A model generated the notes under the pieces. That model saw only the letters and a program-made list of their open reading frames with translations, searched no databases and was not told the origin of the DNA. From an uncultured Bacteroidia bacterium (lineage in GTDB: Bacteria > Bacteroidota > Bacteroidia > Bacteroidales > UBA932), in assembly GCA_902780455.1 (NCBI GenBank), contig CACZFO010000001.1, positions 62,001 to 126,000 on the forward strand: 64,000 nucleotides of DNA. Reading direction: 5' to 3'. This document shows positions 17,096-62,500 of this stretch, in pieces. How positions within the stretch are numbered: the stretch's first letter is position 1; each line of letters begins with the position of its first letter. A program made the translations under genes and the position numbers.

Positions 17096-17830
17096 CTACT
17101 TCTTTATGTAATAATCTGCTATGAAAGCCAGCCCCTGCAATACCATGTCCTGTGTTGCAAAGACCGTGTTCTTTATCTTGTGTGCAAAGTAAAAAGCATC
17201 TCCGCCTGTGAAAATAATGGTATGCTGCGGATATCTTTTAATATATCCTTCTACTTCAAACATCAGGCCGAACACCACTCCGGCACTCATCGCACCGGTG
17301 GTTGTAACCCCTACCGGAGGAAATTCCGCATCCGGAGAGATGAACGGAAGAAGCCCGGTAAATTCGTTCAGGGCACGGAAACGCGACCTCATTCCAAGCG
17401 AAATGTTACCTCCCAGATAACTTCCGTTCTTGTCTATGAAATCTATGGTCATGGCTGTTCCGAAGTCAAACTTTATACAGTCCTGACCTTTGAACATGCA
17501 TGCTACGGCAACGGCGGCGGCTATCCTGTCAGCTCCCAGTTCCGTGGCGTCAAATCCGTAGTTGAGGTTTACCGGAAGCTCTGTCTTGTAATCAAGCATT
17601 ATGAGCCTGCGGCACAAAGGCCTGAGAGCTTCCTCCACCGGAGCATTGGCCGTACGCACATTGCTTACAACCATTGTATCTATTTCATACTCACCGGATT
17701 CTATGACGCTCATTATAAACTTTACAGCATCCCTTTCAGAGGAACGGTGAAGCTTGCCCATGGTACCGTTGTAGTAGAAGACAACCTTTGCGTTGGTGTT
17801 TCCTATGTCAACCAGAAGATTTGTTTCCAT
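17096..17830 (-). CDS. coaX: Type III pantothenate kinase
   Basis: 244 aa. The N-terminal phosphate-binding loop NLLVDIGNTNAKV and the later FDFGTAMTIDFID and GALSAG-like GAMSAGVV motifs are those of CoaX, an ASKHA-fold kinase that starts coenzyme A synthesis and is insensitive to CoA feedback. Its first 23 bases overlap the 3' end of mfd on the same strand. A promoter box lies inside mfd just ahead of the ATG, so it can be read both with mfd and separately. Confidence 0.95.
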   Translation of the reverse strand: METNLLVDIGNTNAKVVFYYNGTMGKLHRSSERDAVKFIMSVIESGEYEIDTMVVSNVRTANAPVEEALRPLCRRLIMLDYKTELPVNLNYGFDATELGADRIAAAVAVACMFKGQDCIKFDFGTAMTIDFIDKNGSYLGGNISLGMRSRFRALNEFTGLLPFISPDAEFPPVGVTTTGAMSAGVVFGLMFEVEGYIKRYPQHTIIFTGGDAFYFAHKIKNTVFATQDMVLQGLAFIADYYIKK

Positions 17831-20800
17831 ATAAAGCCCAAATATAGTGATAAATTGAATACAATATATCGTATGCCTTGCGGATGGAATCCACTCCCGG
17901 CACTTTTACCCACAGTTTGTTCTGCTCCTGCTGGTAGTTGACCTTGCCTATCCTCCGCGATGCAATCTGGCTCATCACTCCCTGATAGATATCCGTCTTG
18001 TAATATGCCGACTGAGGATCCGATACGAAGTAGACAAGCATCATTCCCTGCTTGAGAACTATTTTCTCAAACCCGAGCTTTACCGCAACGTGCCTCAGCT
18101 TTACCACATACGAAAGTTCCCGAACCTGCTCCGGAGGTTCACCGAACCTATCCTTGAGAGAAGACATGAAGGCTTCTATCGAGTCGTCGTCCTTCATGGC
18201 GTCAAGTTCCTTGTACAGCTTTATCTTTTCCGTGGTCTGGCTTATGTACTCATCCGGAATGAACAGCTCAAGGTCCGTATCCACGGCGCAGTCAGATACG
18301 AACTGCACGTCTTCTGAAGGATGCTGTGGAATATCTTCCCTCTTGGAATTGATTTCTATGAACGCTTCGTTGAGTATCCTCTGGTATGTCTCAAAACCCA
18401 TGTCTGCGATGAAACCGCTCTGCTCCCCTCCCAGCAGGTTTCCGGCACCTCTTATGTCCAGATCCTGCATCGCGATGTTGAATCCGCTTCCAAGTTCGCT
18501 GAAGGCTTCTATGGCTTTGATCCTGCGTTTTGCATCCTCTGTCATTGACGTTGCCGGAGGAACGATTAGGTAGCAGTAGGCTTTTACCGCCGAACGTCCG
18601 ACCCTTCCCCTGAGCTGGTGTAAATCGCTCAGGCCGAACATGTGCGCCTGATTGATAATCATGGTGTTGGCATTAGGGATGTCTATGCCGTTCTCTATGA
18701 TGGTCGTGGAAATCAGGATGTCGTAATCGCCCCTTATGAAATCCAGCATCCGGTTTTCCAGAACGGACGGTTCCATCTGGCCGTGACCGGTTACGGTCTT
18801 GGCTTTAGGACAGATTCGGTGTATCATCTGTTCCAGTGCCGGCAGGTCTTCCACCCTGTTGTGCACAAAGAAAACCTGACCTCCGCGGCTCAGTTCGTTG
18901 TCTATGGCTTCTCGGATGTAATCTTCGTTGAAATCTATGATCTCTGTCTGTACCGGAAGCCTGTTTGGCGGAGGAGTGTTTATTATGGAAAGGTCTCTTG
19001 CACCAAGCAGGGAGAACTGCAGCGTGCGTGGAATAGGCGTAGCCGTAAGTGTAAGGGTGTCAACCTCCACCTTCAGCTGCCTGAGTCTTTCCTTGGCAGA
19101 TACTCCGAATTTCTGCTCCTCGTCAACTATCAGCAGACCAAGGTCCTTGAACTTTATGCTCTTGTTCAGAAGCCTGTGGGTTCCTATTATGATGTCAATC
19201 TTTCCGGAAGCTATGTTCTGCGTTATCTCCCTTATGTCCTTTGCGCTGCGGAGCCTGGAAATGTAGTCTATGGTACAAGGATACTTGGCAAGCCTCTCCG
19301 TAAATGTCTTGTAATGCTGAAGGGCCAGGATGGTGGTAGGAACCAGTACGCACACCTGCTTGCTGTCGCACACGGCCTTGAAGGCGGCGCGTATTGCAAC
19401 TTCCGTCTTTCCGAAACCCACGTCGCCGCATACCAGGCGGTCCATCGGGTTCGGACTTTCCATGTCGTGCTTTATTGCCTTGGTGGCGGACGTCTGGTCC
19501 GGAGTATCCTCAAACATGAAGGAGGCTTCCAGCTCGTCCTGGAGATAGGTGTCGGCTGAGAAGGCAAAGCCCTGGGTCCTCTTCCTCTGGGCATAGAGGT
19601 CTATCAGGTCCTTGGCTATGTCCTTTATCTTGGCCTTGGTGGTGGTTTTCAGTTTGTTCCATGCACCGCTTCCAAGTTTGTATATCTTCGGAGGTACGCC
19701 GTCCTTGCTCTTGTACTTTGAAATCTTATGGAGGCTGTGAACGGAAACGAATATTACATCTCCGTCGCGATACATGATCTTTATGGCCTCCTGCATCCTC
19801 CCGCCTATGCTGGTTTTCAGAAGACCTCCGAAAACTCCCACTCCGTGGTCTATGTGCACTATGTAGTCTCCTACATGGAATGCGTTCAGGTCTTCTATCG
19901 CCAGCCTTTCGCTCCTTTCTACCTGACGGCGTACCCTGACCCTGTGATACCTCTCAAAAATCTGATGGTCGGTATAAAGGCATATTTTGGTGTCTGCGCA
20001 CACAAAACCCTCGTGCACCGATTGCTGAAGATGTTCAAAATGTGGGTATTCCCCGCTTGAAATACGTGAAGAATCCCTGAATATGCTCCTTATCCTCTCC
20101 ACCTGTTCTTCAGACGGGGAACTTATGAAAACCGTATATCCTTCTGAATTCCTCTTCCTTATATCATCGGCAAGAAGAGAAAAATTCTTGTTGAAACTAG
20201 GCTGCGGAGAACAGGAGAGTTCAACCTGAACGGAAGTATCATCCAGTTTCCTTCCGTTGAGCGAAACTGCAGTGTATCCCTCATACAGATCCTCCACGTG
20301 TTCAAACGTATCGTGCCAGACAAGACAGTTATCCTTACCTATGTAGTCAAGCAGGGTCTGCCCTCCAAGTGCAATCACTGAAGAAGCCTTGTTGAGGTCA
20401 GGAAAAATCTCTACCATGTCTGTCTTTTCCACCGAACGCTGGCTGTCTACGTTGAACTTGTTTATGGATTCAACTTCGTTTCCGAAAAAATCAATCCTGT
20501 ACGGAACATTGTCTGAATATGAGAAAATATCAACTATTCCTCCCCTTATGGCAAACTGTCCAGGTTCGGAAACAAAATCCACCTTTTCAAATCCGGAAGA
20601 TGAAAGCTTGGTCTTGAGCTGTTCAAAATCAATGTTGTCTCCTGGTTTTAGGGTAAGTATACTCTTTGATACAGCATCTCTCCTGACTATTTTTTCCTTC
20701 AAAGGATCCGGATAGGTGACTATCACCAGATTCCCTGACTTTTCAGAAAACCTGTTTATTGCACTGAGCGTTATGCTCCTTTGCACCTTGTTGGAAGAAT

Positions 20801-21107
20801 CCTTGATTGAAATTATCCTGGATGAAGATGAGGACGAAGAAGGAAAATAGAATACATTGTCTCCGAATTCAGGGTAGAGGTCATTGCACATGTATTCTGC
20901 AGCTTCCTTGCTGTCTTCAACTATCACATGTACATGAGAAGATACGCAACCCTTTACGGCAGAGCAAAAGAAAAACCCCTTGGAAGATGCAAAAAGTCCT
21001 TTTATCAAAGCCGATGAACCTGCTTTTTTTTCATCGATGAATAAAGAGATCCTCTTTACCGCCTCCAAGCGCGAAAACCCAGATATTATTCCCTCCATCT
21101 TTCCCAT
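17808..21107 (-). CDS. mfd: Transcription-repair coupling factor
   Basis: 1099 aa from ATG 21107; ATG 21098 is an alternative. A TTG at 21119 lies inside the promoter element and is unlikely. Domains in order: UvrB-like N-terminal module (about 1-330), CarD-like RNA polymerase interaction domain (HVGDYIVHIDHGVGVFGG), RecG-like translocase with Walker A GDVGFGKTE, Walker B DEEQ, TATPIPRTL and RGRVGRS, and a C-terminal TRCF domain. Mfd pushes stalled RNA polymerase off damaged DNA and recruits UvrA. It heads the leftward run with coaX. Confidence 0.96.
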   Translation of the reverse strand: MGKMEGIISGFSRLEAVKRISLFIDEKKAGSSALIKGLFASSKGFFFCSAVKGCVSSHVHVIVEDSKEAAEYMCNDLYPEFGDNVFYFPSSSSSSSRIISIKDSSNKVQRSITLSAINRFSEKSGNLVIVTYPDPLKEKIVRRDAVSKSILTLKPGDNIDFEQLKTKLSSSGFEKVDFVSEPGQFAIRGGIVDIFSYSDNVPYRIDFFGNEVESINKFNVDSQRSVEKTDMVEIFPDLNKASSVIALGGQTLLDYIGKDNCLVWHDTFEHVEDLYEGYTAVSLNGRKLDDTSVQVELSCSPQPSFNKNFSLLADDIRKRNSEGYTVFISSPSEEQVERIRSIFRDSSRISSGEYPHFEHLQQSVHEGFVCADTKICLYTDHQIFERYHRVRVRRQVERSERLAIEDLNAFHVGDYIVHIDHGVGVFGGLLKTSIGGRMQEAIKIMYRDGDVIFVSVHSLHKISKYKSKDGVPPKIYKLGSGAWNKLKTTTKAKIKDIAKDLIDLYAQRKRTQGFAFSADTYLQDELEASFMFEDTPDQTSATKAIKHDMESPNPMDRLVCGDVGFGKTEVAIRAAFKAVCDSKQVCVLVPTTILALQHYKTFTERLAKYPCTIDYISRLRSAKDIREITQNIASGKIDIIIGTHRLLNKSIKFKDLGLLIVDEEQKFGVSAKERLRQLKVEVDTLTLTATPIPRTLQFSLLGARDLSIINTPPPNRLPVQTEIIDFNEDYIREAIDNELSRGGQVFFVHNRVEDLPALEQMIHRICPKAKTVTGHGQMEPSVLENRMLDFIRGDYDILISTTIIENGIDIPNANTMIINQAHMFGLSDLHQLRGRVGRSAVKAYCYLIVPPATSMTEDAKRRIKAIEAFSELGSGFNIAMQDLDIRGAGNLLGGEQSGFIADMGFETYQRILNEAFIEINSKREDIPQHPSEDVQFVSDCAVDTDLELFIPDEYISQTTEKIKLYKELDAMKDDDSIEAFMSSLKDRFGEPPEQVRELSYVVKLRHVAVKLGFEKIVLKQGMMLVYFVSDPQSAYYKTDIYQGVMSQIASRRIGKVNYQQEQNKLWVKVPGVDSIRKAYDILYSIYHYIWALYGNKSSG
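17839..17846 (-). promoter_or_regulatory. TAnnTTTG promoter element for coaX, inside mfd
   Basis: TATATTTG on the minus strand ends 8 bases before the coaX ATG and lies within the last codons of mfd. Transcription from it would give a leader of only about 5 bases. Confidence 0.5.
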
Positions 21108-21116
21108 CTCGGGCAG

Positions 21117-21124
21117 CAAAGATA
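21117..21124 (-). promoter_or_regulatory. TAnnTTTG promoter element for mfd
   Basis: TATCTTTG on the minus strand ends 9 bases before ATG 21107. It excludes the upstream TTG as a start and predicts a leader of about 6 to 15 bases. Confidence 0.6.
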
Positions 21125-21384
21125 GTCATTAGTTGAAAAATATGTTATTAACCGTGTTGATAACTTTGTTAAAAGAAAACAAGGTTTCAAAAAGTTGAAA
21201 ACCTCCCGTCTGACCAACATGAAAACACCAGCTTTCTCAACATCGACCTATATCAGAAAAATGCCTTGGAAATATCTCTGAAACACTTTTTAAAAGTTTT
21301 CAACATTATCAACAGGATACAACAACAACTAAAAATCTTTATAAAAAATAATAAATGGTTATAGTAAATGGTGGACAAATCCAG
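21125..21384. other. AT-rich divergent gap with DnaA-box-like cluster (candidate replication origin)
   Basis: This 260-base gap between mfd and ruvB has no supported gene. It holds repeated 9-mers one or two changes from the DnaA box TTATCCACA: TTATCAACA at 21306-21314 and (minus) 21155-21163, TTTTCAACA at 21297-21305 directly abutting the former, TTCTCAACA at 21234-21242, and TTTTCAACT (minus) at 21131-21139 and 21193-21201. A run of almost pure A/T follows (about 21329-21368), as an unwinding element would. The clustering is directly visible; the origin role is inference. Confidence 0.4.
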
Positions 21385-21392
21385 TATCTTTG
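21385..21392 (+). promoter_or_regulatory. TAnnTTTG promoter element for ruvB
   Basis: TATCTTTG lies 20 bases before ATG 21413. It sits inside the frame that would start at ATG 21368, so it decides in favour of the shorter RuvB. Confidence 0.55.
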
Positions 21393-21412
21393 TTCCAGAA
21401 GACAACCTAAAT

Positions 21413-22450
21413 ATGATTTCAGAGGGAAACGACATAGAGAATTTCAATCCCAGGCAGATAGAATCTTCTTCCGACAGGGAGGTGGAAAGCCTTGTGCGCC
21501 CGAAGGAATTCAGCGATTTTTCCGGTCAGGAAAAGGTAGTTGAGAACCTGAGGGTGTTTGTAAAAGCTGCCAGGATGAGGGGAGAATCCCTGGACCACAC
21601 CTTGCTTTTCGGTCCTCCAGGTCTTGGAAAGACCACCCTGGCCAATATCATAGCCAACGAGATGGGAGTTGACATGAAGGTTACCTCAGGTCCTATCCTG
21701 GACAAGCCTGGAGACCTTGCCGGCCTGCTGACTTCTCTTGAAAGCGGAGACGTACTCTTCATAGACGAGATCCACCGTCTTCCAAAGATAGTTGAGGAAT
21801 ATCTGTACTCTGCGATGGAAGACTTCCGTATAGACATAATGATAGACAAGGGTCCGGGAGCCAGGAGCGTGCAGATAACCCTCAATCCTTTCACCCTGGT
21901 CGGCGCCACTACCAGGAGCGGACTTCTGTCTTCTCCTCTGAGGGCCAGGTTCGGAATAAACTGCCATCTGGAATATTACAATACCCAGACCTTGCAGAAG
22001 ATCATAAAGAGGTCCGCCGGAATCCTTGACATAGACATAGACGACCAGGCTGCCAAGGAAATAGCTTGCCGCAGCCGCGGAACTCCGAGAATAGCAAATT
22101 CTCTCCTTAGGCGCGTGAGGGATTTTGCCCAGGTAAAAGGCAACGGAGATGTAGACCTTGAAATAACCCGATATTCACTGGATGCCCTCAACATAGACAA
22201 GAGAGGTTTGGACATGATGGACAACAAGATCCTTTCTACTATCATATCCAAGTTCAAGGGAGGTCCCGTTGGTCTTACCACCATAGCTACTGCTGTGGGA
22301 GAAGATGCCGGTACCATAGAGGAGGTTTATGAACCGTTCCTTATCCAGGAAGGCTTCATCAGGAGGACTCCGAGGGGAAGGGAGGTTACAGACCTCAGCT
22401 ACAAGCATCTTGGCATAGACAGGTACAAGAACGACCTTTCGCTTTTCTGA
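21413..22450 (+). CDS. ruvB: Holliday junction branch migration helicase RuvB
   Basis: 345 aa from ATG 21413. An in-frame ATG at 21368 would add 15 residues without family similarity and would overlap the promoter. RuvB hallmarks are [12 protein letters not shown]-like ([19 protein letters not shown]), Walker A GPPGLGKT, Walker B DEIH, the sensor GATTRSG, and the C-terminal winged helix ending [10 protein letters not shown]. It is the hexameric motor that drives branch migration with RuvA, whose gene is at 39944. An Ntn-hydrolase gene follows 23 bases downstream. Confidence 0.97.
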
Positions 22451-23711: not shown

Positions 23712-23745
23712 AAGATGCCGGACAAATACATCCGGCATCTTTTTT
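23712..23745 (+). terminator. Rho-independent terminator after the Ntn-hydrolase gene
   Basis: An 11-bp perfect stem (AAGATGCCGGA / TCCGGCATCTT) with an 8-base loop is followed by a run of T. It separates the plus-strand Ntn-hydrolase from the convergent hexosaminidase. Confidence 0.88.
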
Positions 23746-26182
23746 AATAAATCTTCAGCGGAGGGAGGAAGAAATTCTGACCGTCGCTTTCTCCTGTTAC
23801 CGTAATCCTGACACTCTTTACCATGGTGTTTGGAGTGAGCACTATCCTGCTGCAGTCTACCTCTTTCTTTCCCTTGTAGTTGACCCCGTCTTCAGAGTAT
23901 TCTGCATAACCTTCCGTGAGTCCGTAGAAATCCACGTTTGACCTTCCGGTCACTATGTCTATTACGGAGCATTTGACAGGTTCTTCAAATATGAATGTTA
24001 TATAGTCTCCTTTCTTTGCCCTGCCCTCAAACCTGCAGTAGGAATTCTTCTTGTATTCCTTTAGAATGCTGAGGTTTTTCTCAGATGCTTTCATATTGGT
24101 CTCGATTTCAAAATGAGGCACCATGCGGACGGTTTGCAGAGGCATGTTTGAAACAGCGACTCCGACAGAATGGAGGGTGTCAGAAACAAATGTTGCAAAC
24201 CTGTAATTTGCAATATCTCTGGTAATTATAGGCTCGGTATAGACATACTTGTAATTAGTGGTGTCTTTCTGGCCCCTTATGTTTCCGATCTCGGTCTGTG
24301 GAGAAACTATGGCATATTTTACCACGGCTCCCTCATACGGAGGAGTAACCGTAATTTTGTAAGGCCGCATATAGGATTCGCTTCTGAGGACATCCAGCTT
24401 GGTAAATGCGACAGGCTCTGCCTTGACTTCAGGATACGGTACCCTGAACCTTATTCCCATATTCTCAAGCCTTGCAAAATGAGCCTGTGTCAGACGGTCA
24501 TAGAAATACTTGTAGTTGGCAGCACTGTCTGCGATAGTCCTGGAAGTTCCCCATCCGGTTTCTGCCAATGCACACAGTCTTGGGAACATCTGGTATTCAA
24601 CAAAATTGTCAGGTCTGTTTCCTAATTCTTCCCAAAGTCCGGCCTGTACTCCAACCACGTGTTTCTTTGCAAGTTCAAGGTTTGAAGCTGCCTTTCCTGC
24701 ATCCTTTCCGGCCGCGGCCAGCGCAATAGGATCGTATGAATAAGTTATGTCCAGAGGAATGACCCTTGCCCAGTTGTGTCCTCTCTCTATCGGACTCTGC
24801 TGCATGTCGAGATAAACATATTCGGCAGCCTGCATCACGCAGTCAAATCCGTTCTGCACGGCCTGTGGTCCGAACTTCTTGCGATGCCATACATAAATGA
24901 GGGCATTGTCCTGGATTCCGTCCGCCATCATTATCTCCTCCCATCCTGCAATCTTCTTTCCATATTTTTTTGCAATGTCGTTGACCCTTCTTACAAAATA
25001 TTCATGCAGCTGGTGAGTGTCCTTCATGCCCTTTTCCTTCATGAGAGCCTGGCAGTCAGGGCATCTTGTCCAGTTATGCTGGTTAACCTCGTCACCTCCC
25101 ATGTTTATGATTTTGGAAGGGAACATCTGTGCCATCTCCTTTATGATCTTGTCTATGATTTCATAATTGTGCTCCTTGGCAACACACCATATTTCCCTGG
25201 AAAATCCGGTGTTGTTCACCGATGTATCTTCAGGAGCGTTGCAAAGGATTTCTGGATAGCTGCCTGCTATCGCCGCACTGTGTCCGGGCGTTTCTATTTC
25301 CGGAATAATCTCGATGTTCCTGTCTGCGGCATATTTTACTATATCCTTGATCTGCTGTTGGGTATAGAATCCTCCATAACGCTTGTTGCCGCTTCCGAAA
25401 GATGATGGAATCACCTCCCCGGGTCCTCTCCATGCACCTTTTTCAGTAAGCAGCGGAAGGGACTTTATCTCAACTCTCCATCCCTGGTCGTCTGTCAGAT
25501 GCCAGTGGAACTTGTTGAGCTTGTGGTAAGCCATCCAGTCAAGCACCTTGTAGACAACTTCTGCAGGTCTCCATGTCCTTGAAACATCCAGTTCAAAACC
25601 CCTGTATGAAAACTCGGGCCGGTCTTTGATGCTTCCTGCAGGAATTACCGCCTGTTTTTCAAAAACCTTGTTGTTGAAATCATAAACCTTTGCCGGAAGG
25701 AGCTGGAGTATTGTCTGTACGCTGTTGAACATACCAGCCTGTCCGCCAGCAACTACAAAAACAGCATTCTTGTCTATCTTTATGCTGTAGGATTCTTCCA
25801 TGCCGTCATCATGACTGCCCATGCCAAGCTCCTGTGCCGTAAGGATAGAAATGGCGGTATGTTTAAGTTTGCCGTATTTTTCAGGCAGCTTGTCTTTCTT
25901 GAAAACCGGAGGCTTTGATCCTGTAAGATTGCAAATCCTCTCTGCAAGATATTGTCCTATGAATTCATTGTTGCAGACGATTATCGTTTTTTTGTCAAGG
26001 ATGAAATCTCCAAAAGGGCTTTTTTCATCTTTGCTTCCGTACATCATGGCCATCTTTGGCTGAGGTATCAGCTGGGTGTAAGGATTGTCCTTGTCAAAAC
26101 CATCGTACTGAGCAAAGCTTTTCTGGCTGGACAAACACGCCGAAAGCGCGGCGATTATTATTGTCAATCGTCTGATAAACAT
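23744..26182 (-). CDS. Beta-N-acetylhexosaminidase, GH20 family
   Basis: 812 aa from ATG 26182; an upstream TTG at 26203 is less likely. A signal peptide (about 1-25, SFAQ end) directs it to the periplasm or surface. A GH20b-type N-terminal domain precedes the catalytic barrel. Barrel motifs include FELDVSRTWRP, KFHWHLTDDQGWRVEI, EIETPGHS and the catalytic Asp-Glu in NMGGDEV. The C-terminal part is a beta-sandwich, perhaps carbohydrate binding. It removes terminal GlcNAc or GalNAc from host glycans or murein fragments. It lies at the end of an operon with two DUF4251-like proteins. Confidence 0.93.
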   Translation of the reverse strand: MFIRRLTIIIAALSACLSSQKSFAQYDGFDKDNPYTQLIPQPKMAMMYGSKDEKSPFGDFILDKKTIIVCNNEFIGQYLAERICNLTGSKPPVFKKDKLPEKYGKLKHTAISILTAQELGMGSHDDGMEESYSIKIDKNAVFVVAGGQAGMFNSVQTILQLLPAKVYDFNNKVFEKQAVIPAGSIKDRPEFSYRGFELDVSRTWRPAEVVYKVLDWMAYHKLNKFHWHLTDDQGWRVEIKSLPLLTEKGAWRGPGEVIPSSFGSGNKRYGGFYTQQQIKDIVKYAADRNIEIIPEIETPGHSAAIAGSYPEILCNAPEDTSVNNTGFSREIWCVAKEHNYEIIDKIIKEMAQMFPSKIINMGGDEVNQHNWTRCPDCQALMKEKGMKDTHQLHEYFVRRVNDIAKKYGKKIAGWEEIMMADGIQDNALIYVWHRKKFGPQAVQNGFDCVMQAAEYVYLDMQQSPIERGHNWARVIPLDITYSYDPIALAAAGKDAGKAASNLELAKKHVVGVQAGLWEELGNRPDNFVEYQMFPRLCALAETGWGTSRTIADSAANYKYFYDRLTQAHFARLENMGIRFRVPYPEVKAEPVAFTKLDVLRSESYMRPYKITVTPPYEGAVVKYAIVSPQTEIGNIRGQKDTTNYKYVYTEPIITRDIANYRFATFVSDTLHSVGVAVSNMPLQTVRMVPHFEIETNMKASEKNLSILKEYKKNSYCRFEGRAKKGDYITFIFEEPVKCSVIDIVTGRSNVDFYGLTEGYAEYSEDGVNYKGKKEVDCSRIVLTPNTMVKSVRITVTGESDGQNFFLPPLKIY

Positions 26183-26206
26183 ATGATTATGTCTTGAAAA
26201 CAATTA

Positions 26207-26788
26207 TTAGTTTTTATTTTCCTTTGGTACCGGACGCTCTTCAAGATGTCCGTTGTAGTTGATGAAATCTCTGTACTGGCTTTCAACCCTGACGTATGCC
26301 ATTCCGTTCTTGAAGACGTCTATCTGGAAATAGAAGATTTCGGAATTGTACCTGCTCTTGAATGTGAATTCAACCAGGGCGTAGCATTTCTTGTAAGGAG
26401 GATTGTAGGTAACCTTGGTCTTTACGGGAACCTTGTCTGCATCAATGGCGATGGCGTTATCATTGGAGAATGAATATCTTACCTCCCCGATATATGGCAG
26501 GTAGCATTTGAGTATGCCGTCCTTGATGGAGATGGTATAGCCGTCCATGGTTTCTCTCTGCGGGAGTTTCCTTGGAACGATACGGTCTATCTCTATGTAG
26601 ATATCCTGGTTTTCAACGGAATTGATGACCATTGCCTCAGCAGCAGAAACGGCAGGTACCGGCATTGCGGCTTCCTCCATTGGTGAAGACATTGCTCCAC
26701 CCAATACTGCGCTGGCTTTCCTTGATGTTCCGCAGCTTGCAAGGAGCAGTGCTGCAACTGCTACGGAAATGATTCTGAAAGTTTTCAT
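26207..26788 (-). CDS. DUF4251-like lipoprotein
   Basis: 193 aa. Residues 1-19 form a lipoprotein signal with the lipobox LASC followed by GTSRK, so the protein is probably anchored to a membrane. The rest is a beta-rich domain with YTISIKDGILKCYLPYIGEV, resembling the DUF4251 family of Bacteroidota. It is paralogous to the next gene upstream (26791-27390): both have the xYxI..D..L.C.(L/M)P pattern and a closing E-R-P motif. No function is known. It sits 24 bases before the hexosaminidase start and 2 bases after its paralogue. Confidence 0.72.
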   Translation of the reverse strand: MKTFRIISVAVAALLLASCGTSRKASAVLGGAMSSPMEEAAMPVPAVSAAEAMVINSVENQDIYIEIDRIVPRKLPQRETMDGYTISIKDGILKCYLPYIGEVRYSFSNDNAIAIDADKVPVKTKVTYNPPYKKCYALVEFTFKSRYNSEIFYFQIDVFKNGMAYVRVESQYRDFINYNGHLEERPVPKENKN

Positions 26789-26790
26789 GA

Positions 26791-27390
26791 CTATTCTGTA
26801 AGAGGATTTGACTGTTCAGGCTGAGGTCTTTCAATCACCTCTCCTTCATAGGACATTGATTCAAATCCGGGAACCTCAACCATTGCATATACCTTTCCTG
26901 ACGGATAGATCTGAATGGTCATGGTTACCTGGATGGCCTGGGTGTCCCTGTCTGTGTCGTTGTTCCAGAAAATGCTTCTGAACATGTAGCTCTTCTGCTT
27001 CTCCTGCCAACCGCCGAATATGGTAGTAATCTGATTTTCAGCGTGGATGTTTATGTCAGTATTACTCAGGCTGTAGGCCTGTCTGGACTTTGATTCAGCC
27101 AGACCTTCAAAAGGCATGTTGCAGGAAATATGGTCCTTTTTCAGGTCTATGTAGTAGGACGTATTTCCCATCTGGATGGTCTGGTAGTTGAAGTTGAAGT
27201 TGTTGTTCTTATTGAAGCATCTGAAAATGGATATGTAGATATCCTTCTGCGAAGCACCGTCGTTTACCATCTTGGCAATCCTTTCTTTCCTTTCCCTGGC
27301 GGTTTCTTTTTTCTTTTTCTGCGAATAAGCAGGCATGCAGACCAAAATTGCTGCAGCGAGGCACGCTGCCATTGTCAAAAACTTTTTCAT
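26791..27390 (-). CDS. DUF4251-like exported protein
   Basis: 199 aa with a cleavable signal peptide (1-23, AYSQ end) followed by a highly basic KKKKETARERKER stretch. The core (YYIDLKKDHISCNMPFEGLAE, then IQVTMTIQIYPSGKVYAMVEV) resembles the neighbouring lipoprotein and DUF4251. Unlike its paralogue it has no lipobox cysteine. It is first in a three-gene leftward operon ending with the GH20 enzyme, behind its own promoter element. Function is unknown. Confidence 0.7.
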   Translation of the reverse strand: MKKFLTMAACLAAAILVCMPAYSQKKKKETARERKERIAKMVNDGASQKDIYISIFRCFNKNNNFNFNYQTIQMGNTSYYIDLKKDHISCNMPFEGLAESKSRQAYSLSNTDINIHAENQITTIFGGWQEKQKSYMFRSIFWNNDTDRDTQAIQVTMTIQIYPSGKVYAMVEVPGFESMSYEGEVIERPQPEQSNPLTE

Positions 27391-56017: not shown

Positions 56018-57532
56018 ATGGGAAAGAAAGTTTTACTTATGATCCTCGACGGATGGGGATTGGGAGCACATGACAAGTCAGATGTCATATATACTCAAGG
56101 ACAACCTAACATTGATGCCCTCAGGGCAAGATATCCGCATTCCCAGCTGATGGCCTGCGGAGAAGATGTAGGTCTTCCGGACGGGCAGATGGGCAACTCC
56201 GAAGTTGGTCACCTGAACATAGGTGCAGGAAGGGTTGTCTATCAGGACCTGGTTAAGATAAACAAGGTATGCCGTGAGCACAAGATGCTTGAAAACAAGG
56301 AGATAAAGGCCGTGATGGAGTATGCGAAAGAAGGTCATGACCTGCATCTGATGGGACTGGTGTCAAGGGGCGGAGTCCACAGTTCGCTTGAGCATGTTTT
56401 CGGTTTCCTCGATGCAGCAAAAGAGTGCGGACTTGAAAGGGTTTTCGTACACTGTTTCATGGATGGAAGAGATACCGACCCTCATAGTGGAAAGGGCTTT
56501 GTCAAAGAGCTTGAAGACCACATGGCAAAAAGCTGCGGCAAGGTTGCTTCTGTTTGCGGAAGATTCTACGCCATGGACCGCGACAAGAGATGGAACAGGA
56601 TCAAGGAAGGCTATGACCTTCTCACAGAAGGCAAAGGAGCACAGTTCACATCAGCCCAGGATGGTATCCAGGCCTCTTATGACCAGGATGTTACAGATGA
56701 ATTCATTAAGCCGGTAAGCATCGTTGAAAACGGAAAACCGGTTGCAACAATCAAAGCAGACGACGCTGTCATCTTCTTCAATTTCCGCAACGACCGCGCA
56801 AGGGAAATGACATCTGTCCTTACCCAGAAAGACATGCCGGAAGAAGGGATGCACACCATTCCGCTTTACTACTGCTGCCTTACACCTTATGATGACAAGT
56901 TCAAAGGTCTTCACATCCTGTTCGACAAGGAAAACGTGCATAAGACTCTGGGAGAAGTCGTTGCAGCCGCAGGAAAGCGTCAGCTCAGAATCGCTGAGAC
57001 AGAAAAATACGCCCACGTCACATTCTTCTTCAACGGCGGAAGGGAAGAGCCTTTTGAGAATGAAGACAGGATACTGGTGGCTTCTCCAAAGGTTGCAACA
57101 TACGATCTGCAGCCTGAAATGAGCGCTCCGGAAGTTGCTGAAAAACTCATAGAGGCCATCCGTACCGGAAAGGAAGACATGATCATCCTGAACTTTGCCA
57201 ACGGCGACATGGTGGGCCATACGGGAGTCTATCCGGCTATCTGCAAGGCAGTTGAGACCATAGACAAACTTACGGGAAAAGTGGTGGAGGAGGCAAGGAA
57301 GATGGGATATTCTGTTCTCATTACCGCAGACCACGGCAATGCAGACTATGCCATCAATCCGGACGGAACTCCGAATACCGCCCATTCGCTCAACCCTGTA
57401 CAGTTTGTAGTGGTTGACGATGATGTCAAGGAAGTTGAAGACGGAAGGCTCTGCGACATAGCTCCTACCATCCTCAAACTGATGGATATTCCTCAGCCGC
57501 AAGAAATGACAGGAAAGGTTCTCATAAAGTAG
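56018..57532 (+). CDS. gpmI: 2,3-bisphosphoglycerate-independent phosphoglycerate mutase
   Basis: 504 aa. Alkaline-phosphatase-fold motifs: [11 protein letters not shown] with the first metal Asp, [17 protein letters not shown] with the phosphoserine nucleophile, [26 protein letters not shown], and the metal ligands in [12 protein letters not shown]. It interconverts 3- and 2-phosphoglycerate in glycolysis with two manganese ions. It is cotranscribed with rnr. A perfect 16-bp palindrome begins right after its stop codon, and a remnant of the dnaE start lies 23 bases beyond. Confidence 0.96.
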
Positions 57533-57548
57533 TTTTATCGCGATAAAA
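57533..57548. repeat. 16-bp perfect palindrome after gpmI
   Basis: TTTTATCGCGATAAAA is a loopless perfect dyad directly after the gpmI stop. It looks more like a protein site or insertion boundary than a terminator, since it has only a CGCG core and no loop. Confidence 0.5.
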
Positions 57549-57555
57549 AAACAAG

Positions 57556-57648
57556 ATGATACACCTGCATCTGCAAAGCCATTATTCCATTCAGGACAGG
57601 AGTAAGGAATCCAGATATCTCCTCTTGTTATTATGTCTCCTAAAATAA
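57556..57648 (+). pseudogene. Remnant of the dnaE 5' end, joined to foreign sequence
   Basis: An ATG frame begins MIHLHLQSHYSIQD, close to the DnaE start MSTPFVHLHLHSHYSILDG, and then runs into unrelated codons and a stop after 30 residues. At DNA level 57560-57592 matches 59519-59551 in 32 of 33 bases. Upstream both copies share CAAGATGA; the intact gene has 12 extra in-frame bases after it. The PHP motif (HLHLHSHYS) is kept except His to Gln. It is probably the old dnaE start left after insertion or recombination, and is not functional. Confidence 0.8.
57560..57592 (+). repeat. 33-bp direct repeat of the dnaE start, left copy
   Basis: One mismatch to 59519-59551. The two copies bound the AT-rich block, 1959 bases apart. 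Confidence 0.85.
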
Positions 57649-57782
57649 TTGAATCAATGGGATTAGAATTTTTTTGGGGAACAAAAATCACAGAACCAAA
57701 TACTGGGTCATTTTGTATTCAGTGGAATAATACCGATTTTATAGATGTTTCACCAATACCATTAGGCTGCTACACCAATTAA
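57606..57782 (+). pseudogene. A1: 5'-truncated homologue of the A2 gene
   Basis: The frame is open from 57606 (after a stop at 57603) and contains one ATG, at 57633, giving only 49 residues. From about KIIESMGLEFFWGT through IQWNNTDFIDVSPIPLGCYTN it aligns without a break to the C-terminal half of A2 (SIINEMGLQLYWGT, IQWNNTEYTELTPILLGCYT). The first 60 or so residues of A are missing, cut off where the dnaE remnant begins. It is therefore a broken copy. B1 follows 16 bases later, in the same A-then-B order as A2-B2. Base composition is strongly AT-rich. Confidence 0.7.
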
Positions 57783-57798
57783 TGAAATATATATAATT

Positions 57799-58446
57799 AT
57801 GAAGTGTTTTTTTTACACAATAATATTATTAGCGGTATGTCAGTCAAAAGCATATTCTCAATCTTTTGAAGAATTACCGCTAGACAAACAAAACACTTTT
57901 TTCGAAGGGTACTGGAAATCTGTTTCTAGCAATAGTGATACAATTTTCATTTTAAAAATTAAACATTTTGAAACGGAGAGAGGCAATGTATATATTGGTT
58001 CATATCTTTTAAAGTACAATGAGACACTAGATGATAAACTATCTGATCTTTCAGATTTTCTACCCTTTTCCTCTTTCGAGGATTTTAAAAGAATAGATTC
58101 GATAAAGTTCTACCAAAATAAGGTAAAGCAATGGTATTCAATATTTCTCACGGGGGGGACCTCTCATGTTATGAGAGGATCTTTTTATGATTATATAAAA
58201 GGGCATCGCAACGGGCAAGTAACACTTGAGGTTTTATCTGCACAAAATGGTAGTGAAACAATCACTTGGTCTTTAACGATAGGAGATGGTACGTATTACT
58301 ATCCCAACGGTTGTGAAAATGAACTTTTTACTTTCTCTGTTCCTACAAGTACAGTATTTACAAAAATATATAACCTTAGAGAGTTTGAAAATGAAGGGAT
58401 CGTTCTCCCCCCATTTCCGCGACAGTTAGAGGTTCATCAACCCTAA
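57799..58446 (+). CDS. B1: secreted protein of unknown function, paralogue of B2
   Basis: 215 aa with a signal peptide (about 1-20, KAYSQ end). It is followed by a beta-rich domain with FFEGYWKSVSSNSDTIFILK, then GNVYIGSYLLKY, RGSFYDYIKGHRNGQVTLEV, ITWSLTIGDGTYYYPNG and a C-terminal GIVLPPFPRQLE. It is clearly paralogous to B2 at 58804. No catalytic motif is apparent. The FFEGYWK start recalls small exported DUF6705-type proteins of Bacteroidota, but I cannot confirm this. It is far more AT-rich than its neighbours and contains a G7 run at 58152-58158. An immunity role is possible. Confidence 0.65.
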   Translation: MKCFFYTIILLAVCQSKAYSQSFEELPLDKQNTFFEGYWKSVSSNSDTIFILKIKHFETERGNVYIGSYLLKYNETLDDKLSDLSDFLPFSSFEDFKRIDSIKFYQNKVKQWYSIFLTGGTSHVMRGSFYDYIKGHRNGQVTLEVLSAQNGSETITWSLTIGDGTYYYPNGCENELFTFSVPTSTVFTKIYNLREFENEGIVLPPFPRQLEVHQP

Positions 58447-58457
58447 AAAACACGAGT

Positions 58458-58802
58458 TTGAACTTGGATATCCTCATTAAAGACAGTACGACATTTCATA
58501 ACTATATAAATAATTATTTGATAAATTCGAACACCCCTGATTGGTATAATAAACAAAGGCAAGTATTGATAGATGATTTTGGTGATTTATATTCTGAAAA
58601 GAAAATATACAATAACCGCAATAACACATATGAGTACATAGACGTAATAAAATCTATCATTAATGAAATGGGACTACAATTGTATTGGGGTACTTTAATT
58701 AATGGCAATTCAGAACAAAAACTAATACAATGGAATAATACCGAATATACAGAGTTAACCCCGATACTTCTTGGATGTTATACTCATATTCAAAGATTAT
58801 AA
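58458..58802 (+). CDS. A2: unknown protein, TTG start only, possible orphan C-terminal module
   Basis: 114 aa if TTG 58458 is used. The frame is open back to 58395 without any ATG, and the first ATG lies halfway through, at GLQLYWGT. So either TTG initiates or this is a detached C-terminal domain. No signal peptide or membrane segment. Composition is polar and Asn/Tyr/Ile-rich, with DWYNKQRQVLIDDFGDLYSEK and IQWNNTEYTELTPILLGCYT. It ends one base before B2, an arrangement like toxin-then-immunity pairs. I do not recognise the family. A truncated homologue, A1, precedes B1. Confidence 0.45.
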   Translation: MNLDILIKDSTTFHNYINNYLINSNTPDWYNKQRQVLIDDFGDLYSEKKIYNNRNNTYEYIDVIKSIINEMGLQLYWGTLINGNSEQKLIQWNNTEYTELTPILLGCYTHIQRL

Positions 58803-58803
58803 A

Positions 58804-59475
58804 ATGAAAAACACAAGACAAATAAAACAGATTTTTCTTGTTGCTTTAATTGTATTATCAAGAACCACTGTTGTATTATCTCAAGATTTAAATGGTCTTG
58901 TAACAGAGGAACAGAAATCATTTTTTGAAGGGTACTGGAAATATACATCATCTACAAGGGATACGATATTTATAGTTAAGTTAAAGTATTTTGAGATGAC
59001 TTTTGGTGGAGAGATATTTAATTATTACATAGGTTCATATCTATATAAAAACCCTTCTCTGGAAGAGGATAACTTATCTATTCTTACAGACTATATGCAG
59101 GAGAGCACCTATGATGATTATTATAACAAGTATTCAACACGAAATGTTAGAGAGAATTATATACCCATCCGAGTATGCAATTATTCATATAATGACATGA
59201 GTGGCGTTTTTTATGATTATACAAAGGACCATATGAATGGTGAGGTAACCCTTTCTGTAATTTCTATCGAAACGGGAGCAGAAACCATAAGTTGGTCTTT
59301 AAAGATCGGCGAAGGAGTATATATGTACGCAGAGGGGGAACAAAATAGGTTGTTTTCTTTTTCTGTTCCAACCAAACTGATATTGACCAAAGTACATAAT
59401 TTAAAAGAGTTTGAGGATATTGGAATAATACTTCCTCCTTTTCCCAGGAAGATGGAATTAAACCCCAAAGATTAA
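58804..59475 (+). CDS. B2: secreted protein of unknown function, paralogue of B1
   Basis: 223 aa from ATG 58804; a longer frame from 58771 overlaps A2 and lacks a signal. The signal peptide is about residues 1-25 (VVLSQD end). The domain matches B1 throughout: FFEGYWKYTSSTRDTIFIVK, FNYYIGSYLYKN, SGVFYDYTKDHMNGEVTLSV, ISWSLKIGEGVYMYAEG, GIILPPFPRKMEL. B2 has a few extra residues after KYFE. The conserved core and divergent middle suggest family members matched to different partners. It is 27 bases upstream of dnaE. Confidence 0.65.
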   Translation: MKNTRQIKQIFLVALIVLSRTTVVLSQDLNGLVTEEQKSFFEGYWKYTSSTRDTIFIVKLKYFEMTFGGEIFNYYIGSYLYKNPSLEEDNLSILTDYMQESTYDDYYNKYSTRNVRENYIPIRVCNYSYNDMSGVFYDYTKDHMNGEVTLSVISIETGAETISWSLKIGEGVYMYAEGEQNRLFSFSVPTKLILTKVHNLKEFEDIGIILPPFPRKMELNPKD

Positions 59476-59502
59476 ATTAAATGCAACAATAAGTATAGCA
59501 AG

Positions 59503-62500
59503 ATGAGCACTCCTTTTGTACACCTGCATCTGCACAGCCATTATTCCATTCTTGACGGAATGGGAAAGATAGAGGATTATATAGCCAGGGCAATGGAACT
59601 TGACATGCCGGCCATGGCCCTTACGGACCACGGCGTGATGTACGGAATCAAGGACTTTCTGGATTCGGTGAAGAAGGCTGAGAAGAAGACCGGGAAAAAG
59701 CTGAAGCCGATAGTTGGTTGCGAGGTATATGTTGCACCGGAGAGCCGCCTGATAAAGAAGGCTTATCCAGACAAGAGAAGCGCTTACCACCTGATACTTC
59801 TGGCAAAGAACCTAATAGGTTACCATAACCTTATGAAGCTGTCTTCCCTTGGTTTTACGGAGGGTTTCTACAACCGTCCGAGGGTGGACCATGAATTAAT
59901 CCAGAAGTATCACGAGGGGCTTATCTGCTGTTCTGCCTGTCTTGCGGGAGAGATTCCTCAGGCCATACTGAAAGGCAACATAGAAGAAGCACGTCAGACG
60001 GCGCTTTGGTACAAGAACATATTCGGAGAAGATTTTTACTTTGAGATCCAGAATCACAACTGCAAGGTACCAGGCCAGGACAACATAGTCTTTGAGGAGC
60101 AGCAGAGGGTGAACCCTGTGCTTTATGCATTTTCTGAAGAGCTTGGTATCAAGTGTGTTGCAACCAACGACTGTCACTTTGTAAAGAAAGAGGACGGGCC
60201 GGCACACGACCTTTTCATCTGCATCAACACGGCCAGCAAGCTCACAGACCAGAACCGCCTGCACTATACCCAGGAAGAGTACATGAAGAGCGGTGACGAA
60301 ATGGCCGAACTCAATTACGGACATCCGGAAGTAATTGCCAATACGCTGGAGATAGCAGACAAGGTAGAAAGATACGAGATAGACATAAAGCACATACTTC
60401 CGCACTTTGACATTCCGGAAGAGTTTGCAGATTCAAACGAATACCTCAAGCATCTGGTTTACGAGGGAGCAAGGAAACGCTATGGCGAGAACATACTGCC
60501 GAGCGTGAAGGAAAGGATAGACTTTGAGCTGGATACCATCCGCAAGATGGGTTTTCCGGACTACTTCCTCATTGTCCACGACTTCATAAACCATGCACGT
60601 TCAGAGGGTATCTGGGTTGGACCGGGAAGAGGTTCCGCAGCCGGCAGCGTTGTGGCATACTGCCTGACAATCACCAATATGGACCCTATCAAGTACGACC
60701 TTCTGTTTGAGCGTTTCCTCAATCCGGACCGTATATCCATGCCGGATATCGACATAGACTTTGAGGAGGAAAGACGCGGCGAGGTCTATGAATACGTGGA
60801 GAAGAAATACGGCAAGGACCATGTTTCCCATGTGGTGACCTTTGGCACCATGGCTACCAAACAGGCTATCAAGGATGTTGCAAGGATAGAGGACCTTCCT
60901 CTGCCCATATCCAACAAGCTGGCCGGCATGGTGCCTACAAGGAGTTTCCAGGAAGATGTCAAGACCAAGGACAAGGACGGAAAGGAAGTGGTTGAAACAA
61001 AGGACTACAAGCCCAACTTCACCAACTGTCTGAAATTCGTTGAAGATTTCCGCAAGGAATATGAAGATTCGCCGGATCCGAAGATCAAGGAAACACTTCA
61101 TTTTGCAAGGGAACTGGAGGGAACCATCCGACAGACCGGAGTACACGCCTGCGCCGTAATCATAGGACCTCACAACCTGATGGAGCACATACCGGTATCG
61201 GTGGCCAAAGGTGTGGAGGGATGGATATCCCAGTACGAAGGAACCAGGATAGAAGATGTAGGAATGCTCAAGATGGACTTCCTGGGCCTGAGAACCCTCT
61301 CCATACTGAAGGAAACTCTTGAGAACATCCGCAAGCATACCGGAAAGCAACTTGACATAGACAGCGTCCCTCTTGACGACAAGGCGACCTTCAAGCTCTT
61401 TGGAAGGGGTGATACCGTTGCCACATTCCAGTTTGAAAGCCCTGGAATGCAGAAATGGCTCAGAGACCTTCATCCTTCAAGATTTGAAGACCTCATAGCC
61501 ATGAATGCCCTCTACCGTCCGGGTCCTATGCAGTACATTCCAAAGTTCGTTGCCAGGAAGACGGGCAAGGAGGCCATTACCTATGAACTTCCTGAAATGG
61601 AGGAAATCCTTTCCGATACTTATGGAGTTACCGTCTACCAGGAGCAGGTGATGCTGCTTTCTCAGAAACTTGCAAAGTTCACCAAGGGCCAGGCAGATAC
61701 CCTGCGAAAAGCCATGGGTAAGAAGAACCTGGAGAAGATGCAGGAACTGGAGGAAAAGTTCCTTGCCAACGGTGTTGAGAACGGGTTCTCAAAGGAAATC
61801 CTGCAGAAGATCTGGAACGACTGGAAGGAATTTGCAAAATATGCGTTCAACAAGTCCCACTCTACCTGCTATGCGTGGGTGGGTTATCTGACAGGATACT
61901 TCAAGGCCCATTATCCGGCAGAGTTCATGGCCGCCAACCTTACAAAGAACTCAACTGACACAAAGGAGATCACCGTCCTGATGGACGAGTGCAAGAGGAT
62001 GGGGCTGAGCGTTCTCGGTCCGGACGTGAACGAGGGCGGAGTGAACGCCACCGTAACGGCAAAGGGCGGGATAAGGTTCGGCCTTGCGGCAATCAAGGGT
62101 CTGGGAACCCAGGTTGCTGAAGATATAGTCAAGAACGCTCCTTACAAGGATATCTACGACTTTGTGGAAAGGGCTAGCCGCCAGAACATGAACCGCAAGA
62201 CTCTGGAGAGCCTGATATATGCCGGAGCGTTTGATTCTTCATTCCCAGAAATCCGCAGGGACCAGTATTTCATGCCGAACACGAAGGGCGAGATATTCCT
62301 GGACAGCCTTATCCGCTACAGTCAGGACTTTGGCTCCATTGACAGCAGCATAGAATCTCTCTTCGGCGACCAGGATGAGGGATTCCAGCTCAAGAAGCCT
62401 GAGATTCCGGCACGCCAGGGCGAGATGAACCTTGTGGAATTCCTCAAGAAGGAGAGGGAACTGGTAGGTATGTACATATCTTCACACCCTCTGGATGTCT

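Follow-up and report, generated by a model that had tools for sequence, protein, structure and literature searches.

A predicted chromosomal replication origin between mfd and ruvB in a Bacteroidales genome and much of its family

In many phyla the chromosomal replication origin, oriC, usually lies beside dnaA. Origins of the Ori-Finder/DoriC type are intergenic, carry 9-bp DnaA boxes with an A/T-rich side, and sit at a minimum of GC skew (PMC10225481). The gap described here, from the genome of an uncultured gut bacterium of the order Bacteroidales, is alike in these respects, but differs from the usual DnaA-type origin in being flanked by mfd and ruvB rather than by dnaA, and in having a box of the form TTWTCAACA rather than TTATCCACA. 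In the same order, the oriC of Prevotella intermedia OMA14 was likewise predicted from DnaA boxes and skew and is far from dnaA, although the box used there was that of E. coli with one mismatch, unlike the one found here (PMC4755523). The same source describes origins away from dnaA as common in Bacteroidetes, where dnaA, the usual marker gene, consequently gives no guide to them. The 9-mer consensus is the same as the DnaA motif TT(T/A)TCAACA proposed for mollicutes and phytoplasmas, members of an unrelated phylum, and the review reporting that motif itself doubts how well it covers their genomes (PMC3322544). In Bacillus subtilis, the basal unwinding system (BUS) of oriC comprises tandem boxes, a short spacer and at least three NAN trinucleotides no more than 16 bp from a box (PMC8287927), an arrangement with a counterpart in our locus (see below). 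A literature search of titles and abstracts returned no report that locates the origin of a Bacteroidales chromosome next to mfd or ruvB.

The window, that is, the whole 64-kb stretch of DNA analysed (G000:C1:62001-126000), belongs to a 1.92-Mb assembly of 78 contigs. Pfam matches confirm the gene arrangement given in the original prediction, with mfd and coaX running leftward and ruvB running rightward with sdhA beyond, by identifying mfd, a type III pantothenate kinase, ruvB and a succinate dehydrogenase flavoprotein. Both genes that face the gap are preceded by a match to TAnnTTTG, which we take to be the Bacteroides-type -7 promoter consensus. Such elements are found before ruvB in 39 of the 40 family loci where mfd is adjacent (2.3 expected), and 23 of the 40 have one ahead of mfd (5.1 expected). 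The positions of the promoter elements suggest gene starts inside both open reading frames, at ~21107 for mfd and ~21413 for ruvB (Table 1). Elsewhere in the window, two neighbouring DUF4251-type genes adjoin a glycosyl hydrolase family 20 gene (23744-27390), and positions 57001-60000, which hold several short open reading frames, have a G+C content of ~36% compared to ~48% around them and are possibly an acquired segment.

Table 1. Features of the mfd-ruvB locus, in window coordinates.
Feature	Position	Strand	Basis or remark
Predicted oriC, intergenic between mfd and ruvB starts	~21108..21412	.	Boxes, conservation, skew; A+T 68.5%
mfd, transcription-repair coupling factor	17808..21119	-	ORF opens at TTG; likely start ATG 21107
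TATCTTTG, likely -7 promoter element of mfd	21117..21124	-	TAnnTTTG match
DnaA-box-like 9-mer TTTTCAACT, left group	21131..21139	-	Pattern scan
DnaA-box-like 9-mer TTATCAACA, left group	21155..21163	-	One change from TTATCCACA
DnaA-box-like 9-mer TTTTCAACT, left group	21193..21201	-	
DnaA-box-like 9-mer TTCTCAACA	21234..21242	+	Pattern scan
Tandem DnaA-box-like pair TTTTCAACA-TTATCAACA, right group	21297..21314	+	Sites at 21297 and 21306
Six A-centred trinucleotides TAC AAC AAC AAC TAA AAA	21318..21335	+	Candidate DnaA-trio run
A/T-rich stretch, candidate unwinding element	21329..21375	.	Inferred limits
ruvB, Holliday-junction helicase	21368..22450	+	ORF opens 21368; likely start ATG 21413
TATCTTTG, likely -7 promoter element of ruvB	21385..21392	+	TAnnTTTG match

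All six 9-mers of the form TTNTCAACW that had been reported for this gap are present on its two strands (21131-21314), and the two said to abut do adjoin. Three minus-strand sites lie to the left and three plus-strand sites to the right. The statement that these 9-mers differ from the E. coli box by one or two changes is correct for TTATCAACA, which has one, and fails for TTTTCAACT, which has three. Eighteen sites occur in the entire window, and the gap contributes six of them. Chance clustering of A/T-rich words might be suspected in a region of about 70% A+T, but among 3,000 dinucleotide shuffles of the gap 2,731 contained no site, 261 contained one, eight contained two and none contained more, which leaves this explanation with a negligible probability. 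The DnaA-box cluster thus exceeds chance, as is characteristic of a DnaA-dependent oriC.

The array also stands out from the rest of its own genome, where TTNTCAACW has 284 sites compared to 127 for the reversed pattern. The two individual words TTATCAACA and TTTTCAACA occur 27 and 59 times, respectively, and a comparison of both site lists by eye places three of them within 500 bases in the gap only. A script test of contig C1 gave the gap as the sole cluster on that contig of at least three TTNTCAACW sites in 450 bases, and relaxing the motif to C or A at the sixth position yielded one further three-site cluster there, at 60,237. The canonical TTWTCCACA was considered as the main box and rejected, having 46 sites in the genome and none in the gap. 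The mfd-ruvB locus is not adjacent to dnaA, which lies on another contig, C53 (L134:2646-4064). An origin near that gene was likewise rejected, since the 20 kb of C53 that were read hold scattered boxes only. E. coli DnaA has the sequence GGRDHTTVLHA, and at a comparable stretch the DnaA of this organism reads GGKDHATVLHA, a difference that might accompany the C-to-A change in the box.

A RuvB-domain match was obtained in all 119 family genomes, in some only via a related ATPase. From these, 78 family loci were taken, the present one included, and the region between 620 and 170 bases upstream of the RuvB P-loop was scored in 77 of them, L271 being left out for lack of a P-loop anchor. Named loci outside the family sample were treated in the same way, with 77 of 80 counted because three had too little upstream sequence. 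The counts include eleven loci whose anchor score was weak, seven of which belong to the family set. Two or more TTNTCAACW sites are found in 46 of the 77 family loci, one site in 10 and none in 21. The conservation in relatives expected of an origin is clearest where mfd faces ruvB: 35 of these 40 loci have two or more sites, four have one and a single locus (L018) has none, a distribution that refutes chance clustering. The corresponding numbers for the 37 loci without mfd upstream, some of which may represent weak anchors and not ruvB, are 11, six and 20. Box presence therefore follows gene order (Fisher p 2e-7, for related genomes that are not independent). Outside the family sample, two or more 9-mers occur in one of 105 loci (none of 28 from other Bacteroidales families and one of the 77 named loci). 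This sole exception, L141, is the nearest relative, with mfd beside ruvB and a RuvB of 94% identity. Among named sequences, the only close relative is “Bacteroidales bacterium” RGIG7951 from water-buffalo rumen.

Not only the boxes but also their layout recur within the family. Most TTWTCAACA sites 440-560 bases ahead of the P-loop have minus-strand orientation, most of those at 240-360 bases have plus-strand orientation, and a right-hand plus-strand box at 220-335 bases recurs in 41 family loci. The conserved order is minus boxes, plus boxes, A-centred trinucleotides, A/T-rich stretch and ruvB promoter. A search of 149 genomes of the order with a stringent 18-base form of this right-hand element gave matches in two, including the one studied here, and the form is too strict to be useful.

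Because the gap holds two TAnnTTTG elements that point in opposite directions and bracket the array, and because mfd and ruvB are both repair genes, the boxes could instead belong to a divergent promoter regulated by DnaA or another transcription factor, with the true origin elsewhere. We consider this improbable, given that the array persists before ruvB in genera that lack the mfd neighbour, some of which have sdhB or a hydrolase on the other side (genes named by eye), and that a large-scale skew minimum falls at the locus in all three closed relatives described below.

The association of these words with DnaA does not depend on the 9-mers chosen in the original prediction. When all 8-mers in the 77 family upstream regions were ranked against Markov-resampled sequence, the first was TATCAACA, present in 53 of the 77 loci (5.0 expected), followed by TTATCAAC in 47 (3.9 expected). 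Pieces of the canonical DnaA box also appear among the top ten, with TATCCACA ranking eighth (17 loci, 1.3 expected) and TTATCCAC tenth (15 loci, 1.0 expected), which ties the enriched words to DnaA independently.

Since the chromosome of this organism is divided among 78 contigs, GC skew was read in three closed genomes of the family: G003, which is from the same genus and 2.23 Mb in length, G010 and G077. The skew minimum anticipated at the locus is present in all three. In G003, cumulative skew over twenty 20-kb samples spread along the genome has its minimum in the ruvB stretch and its maximum at ~1.76-1.78 Mb, roughly half a chromosome away. In G010, where ruvB is located at 15.7 kb, the minimum falls on the final sample ahead of the contig end, which adjoins the contig start. 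In G077, with ruvB at 1.494 Mb, the minimum spans 1.32-1.505 Mb and is lowest in the stretch holding ruvB, and another dip near 720 kb is shallower. Individual samples run against the trend at 220 kb in G003 and at 840 kb in G077.

Contiguous reading of 400 kb around ruvB places the base-level minimum upstream of the RuvB domain, by 242 bases in G077 (at 1,494,135) and by 520 bases in G003 (at 671,968). This sub-kilobase precision should not be over-read, because mfd and ruvB are transcribed divergently, which sharpens the minimum locally. In steps of 20 kb, both genomes still have their minimum beside ruvB. The box array thus coincides with the GC-skew minimum. The cluster at the locus is modest in both genomes, with three sites each.

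Clusters of boxes that titrate or reactivate DnaA are known as datA and DARS, respectively, and an array of this kind might lie near the true origin without being part of it. Two observations would fit such a role. The skew minimum of the organism's own contig, of which 260 of 263.8 kb were read, is at 87,832, some 4.5 kb to the right of the candidate at 83,125-83,384, and G077 has two other three-site clusters of the relaxed motif within its 400-kb stretch. Yet the base-level minima in G003 and G077 occur at the array itself, and the organism's own genome has no second place with three TTWTCAACA in 500 bases. We regard a datA/DARS-like cluster as slightly less probable even than the divergent promoter. 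The skew minima together with the conserved 9-mers instead support the origin proposed between mfd and ruvB, and this gap very probably serves as the chromosomal oriC, both in this organism and in much of its Bacteroidales family. As a DnaA-type oriC it would be ordinary; what is unusual is its location, next to ruvB rather than dnaA.

To the right of the tandem boxes, three bases separate the pair from a run of six NAN trinucleotides, and the window therefore contains the BUS combination of a box, a spacer of at most 16 bp and at least three NAN. In the 41 family loci with a right-hand box, the longest NAN run on its 3′ side averages 4.78, compared to 3.82 in shuffled sequences (z 4.2). This enrichment is absent on the 5′ side of the same box (2.51 versus 2.69 shuffled) and at the left boxes (2.84 versus 2.69). 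Two stricter definitions of the trio gave no enrichment over shuffles in the family loci (z 1.3 and -0.2), the latter value being for [TA]A[AG] runs (1.59 versus 1.62 shuffled). Trios close to 3′-GAT-5′ are thus not enriched here, unlike in B. subtilis (PMC8287927), and the element is best described as a candidate BUS on the basis of its sequence. A half-box, scored by a simple pattern, directly follows the right-most plus-strand box in 22 of the 41 loci.

The trinucleotide run extends into A/T-rich DNA, although the original description of a nearly pure A/T stretch holds only for ~21329-21356. Positions 21126-21384 are 70% A+T overall, and the 40-base windows starting at 21320 and 21340 reach 80-82%, with the richest (82%) being that from 21320. 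An A/T-rich element beside the boxes is typical of oriC, and this one may be the site of unwinding.

These features can be assembled into a plausible initiation pathway. DnaA would bind the TTWTCAACA-type array, whose left and right groups lie on the minus and plus strands, respectively, and the right tandem pair would load DnaA onto the strand that carries the A-centred trinucleotides. The protein would then melt the A/T-rich stretch on the ruvB side, before the ruvB promoter, allowing two helicases to load and forks to depart bidirectionally, so that replication would start here.

Box arrays of the same type were also encountered in other lineages of the order. In the closed genome G249, from another family, six copies of TTATCAACA are present in ~400 bases (1,652,489-1,652,889; L221:10489-10889), close to a gene that by eye resembles ychF and at a distance of 82 kb from ruvB. 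In this genome the sampled skew changes direction between 1.46 and 1.64 Mb, and a local minimum lies ~1.5 kb from the cluster, which is a candidate origin at a different place. At 0.5-1.5 kb before ruvB, named loci from other families contain 19 TTWTCAACA sites in 74 kb, a density above the 0.09 per kb found overall. In Marinifilum (L167), a box cluster lies ~1.2-1.45 kb before the RuvB P-loop, with a response-regulator-like gene between it and ruvB, and the sequence AACATTATTAACAGGATATAATAATCATC is a near copy of the tandem-box-plus-trinucleotide element AACATTATCAACAGGATACAACAACAAC of the window. In a termite-gut member of the Prevotellaceae (L145), the array is one gene away from ruvB. We also observed an mfd-like stretch in Porphyromonas circumdentaria (L208), beyond a sugar-transferase-like gene upstream of ruvB, with no boxes in the tested interval.

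These few cases suggest that the same box is used across the order while its position shifts. A tentative extension, which we think somewhat doubtful, is that the Bacteroidales origin is an itinerant module, whose TTWTCAACA array and tandem-box-plus-trinucleotide core keep their sequence while staying next to ruvB in much of this family and residing elsewhere in others. If so, the shifting position of the origin could be followed across related families.

A mapped origin would provide a reference point for growth-rate estimates based on read depth in uncultured members of this lineage. The analysis also puts forward a specific DnaA box, TTWTCAACA, which is open to testing with purified DnaA, and offers a clade in which to study why an origin sits where it does.
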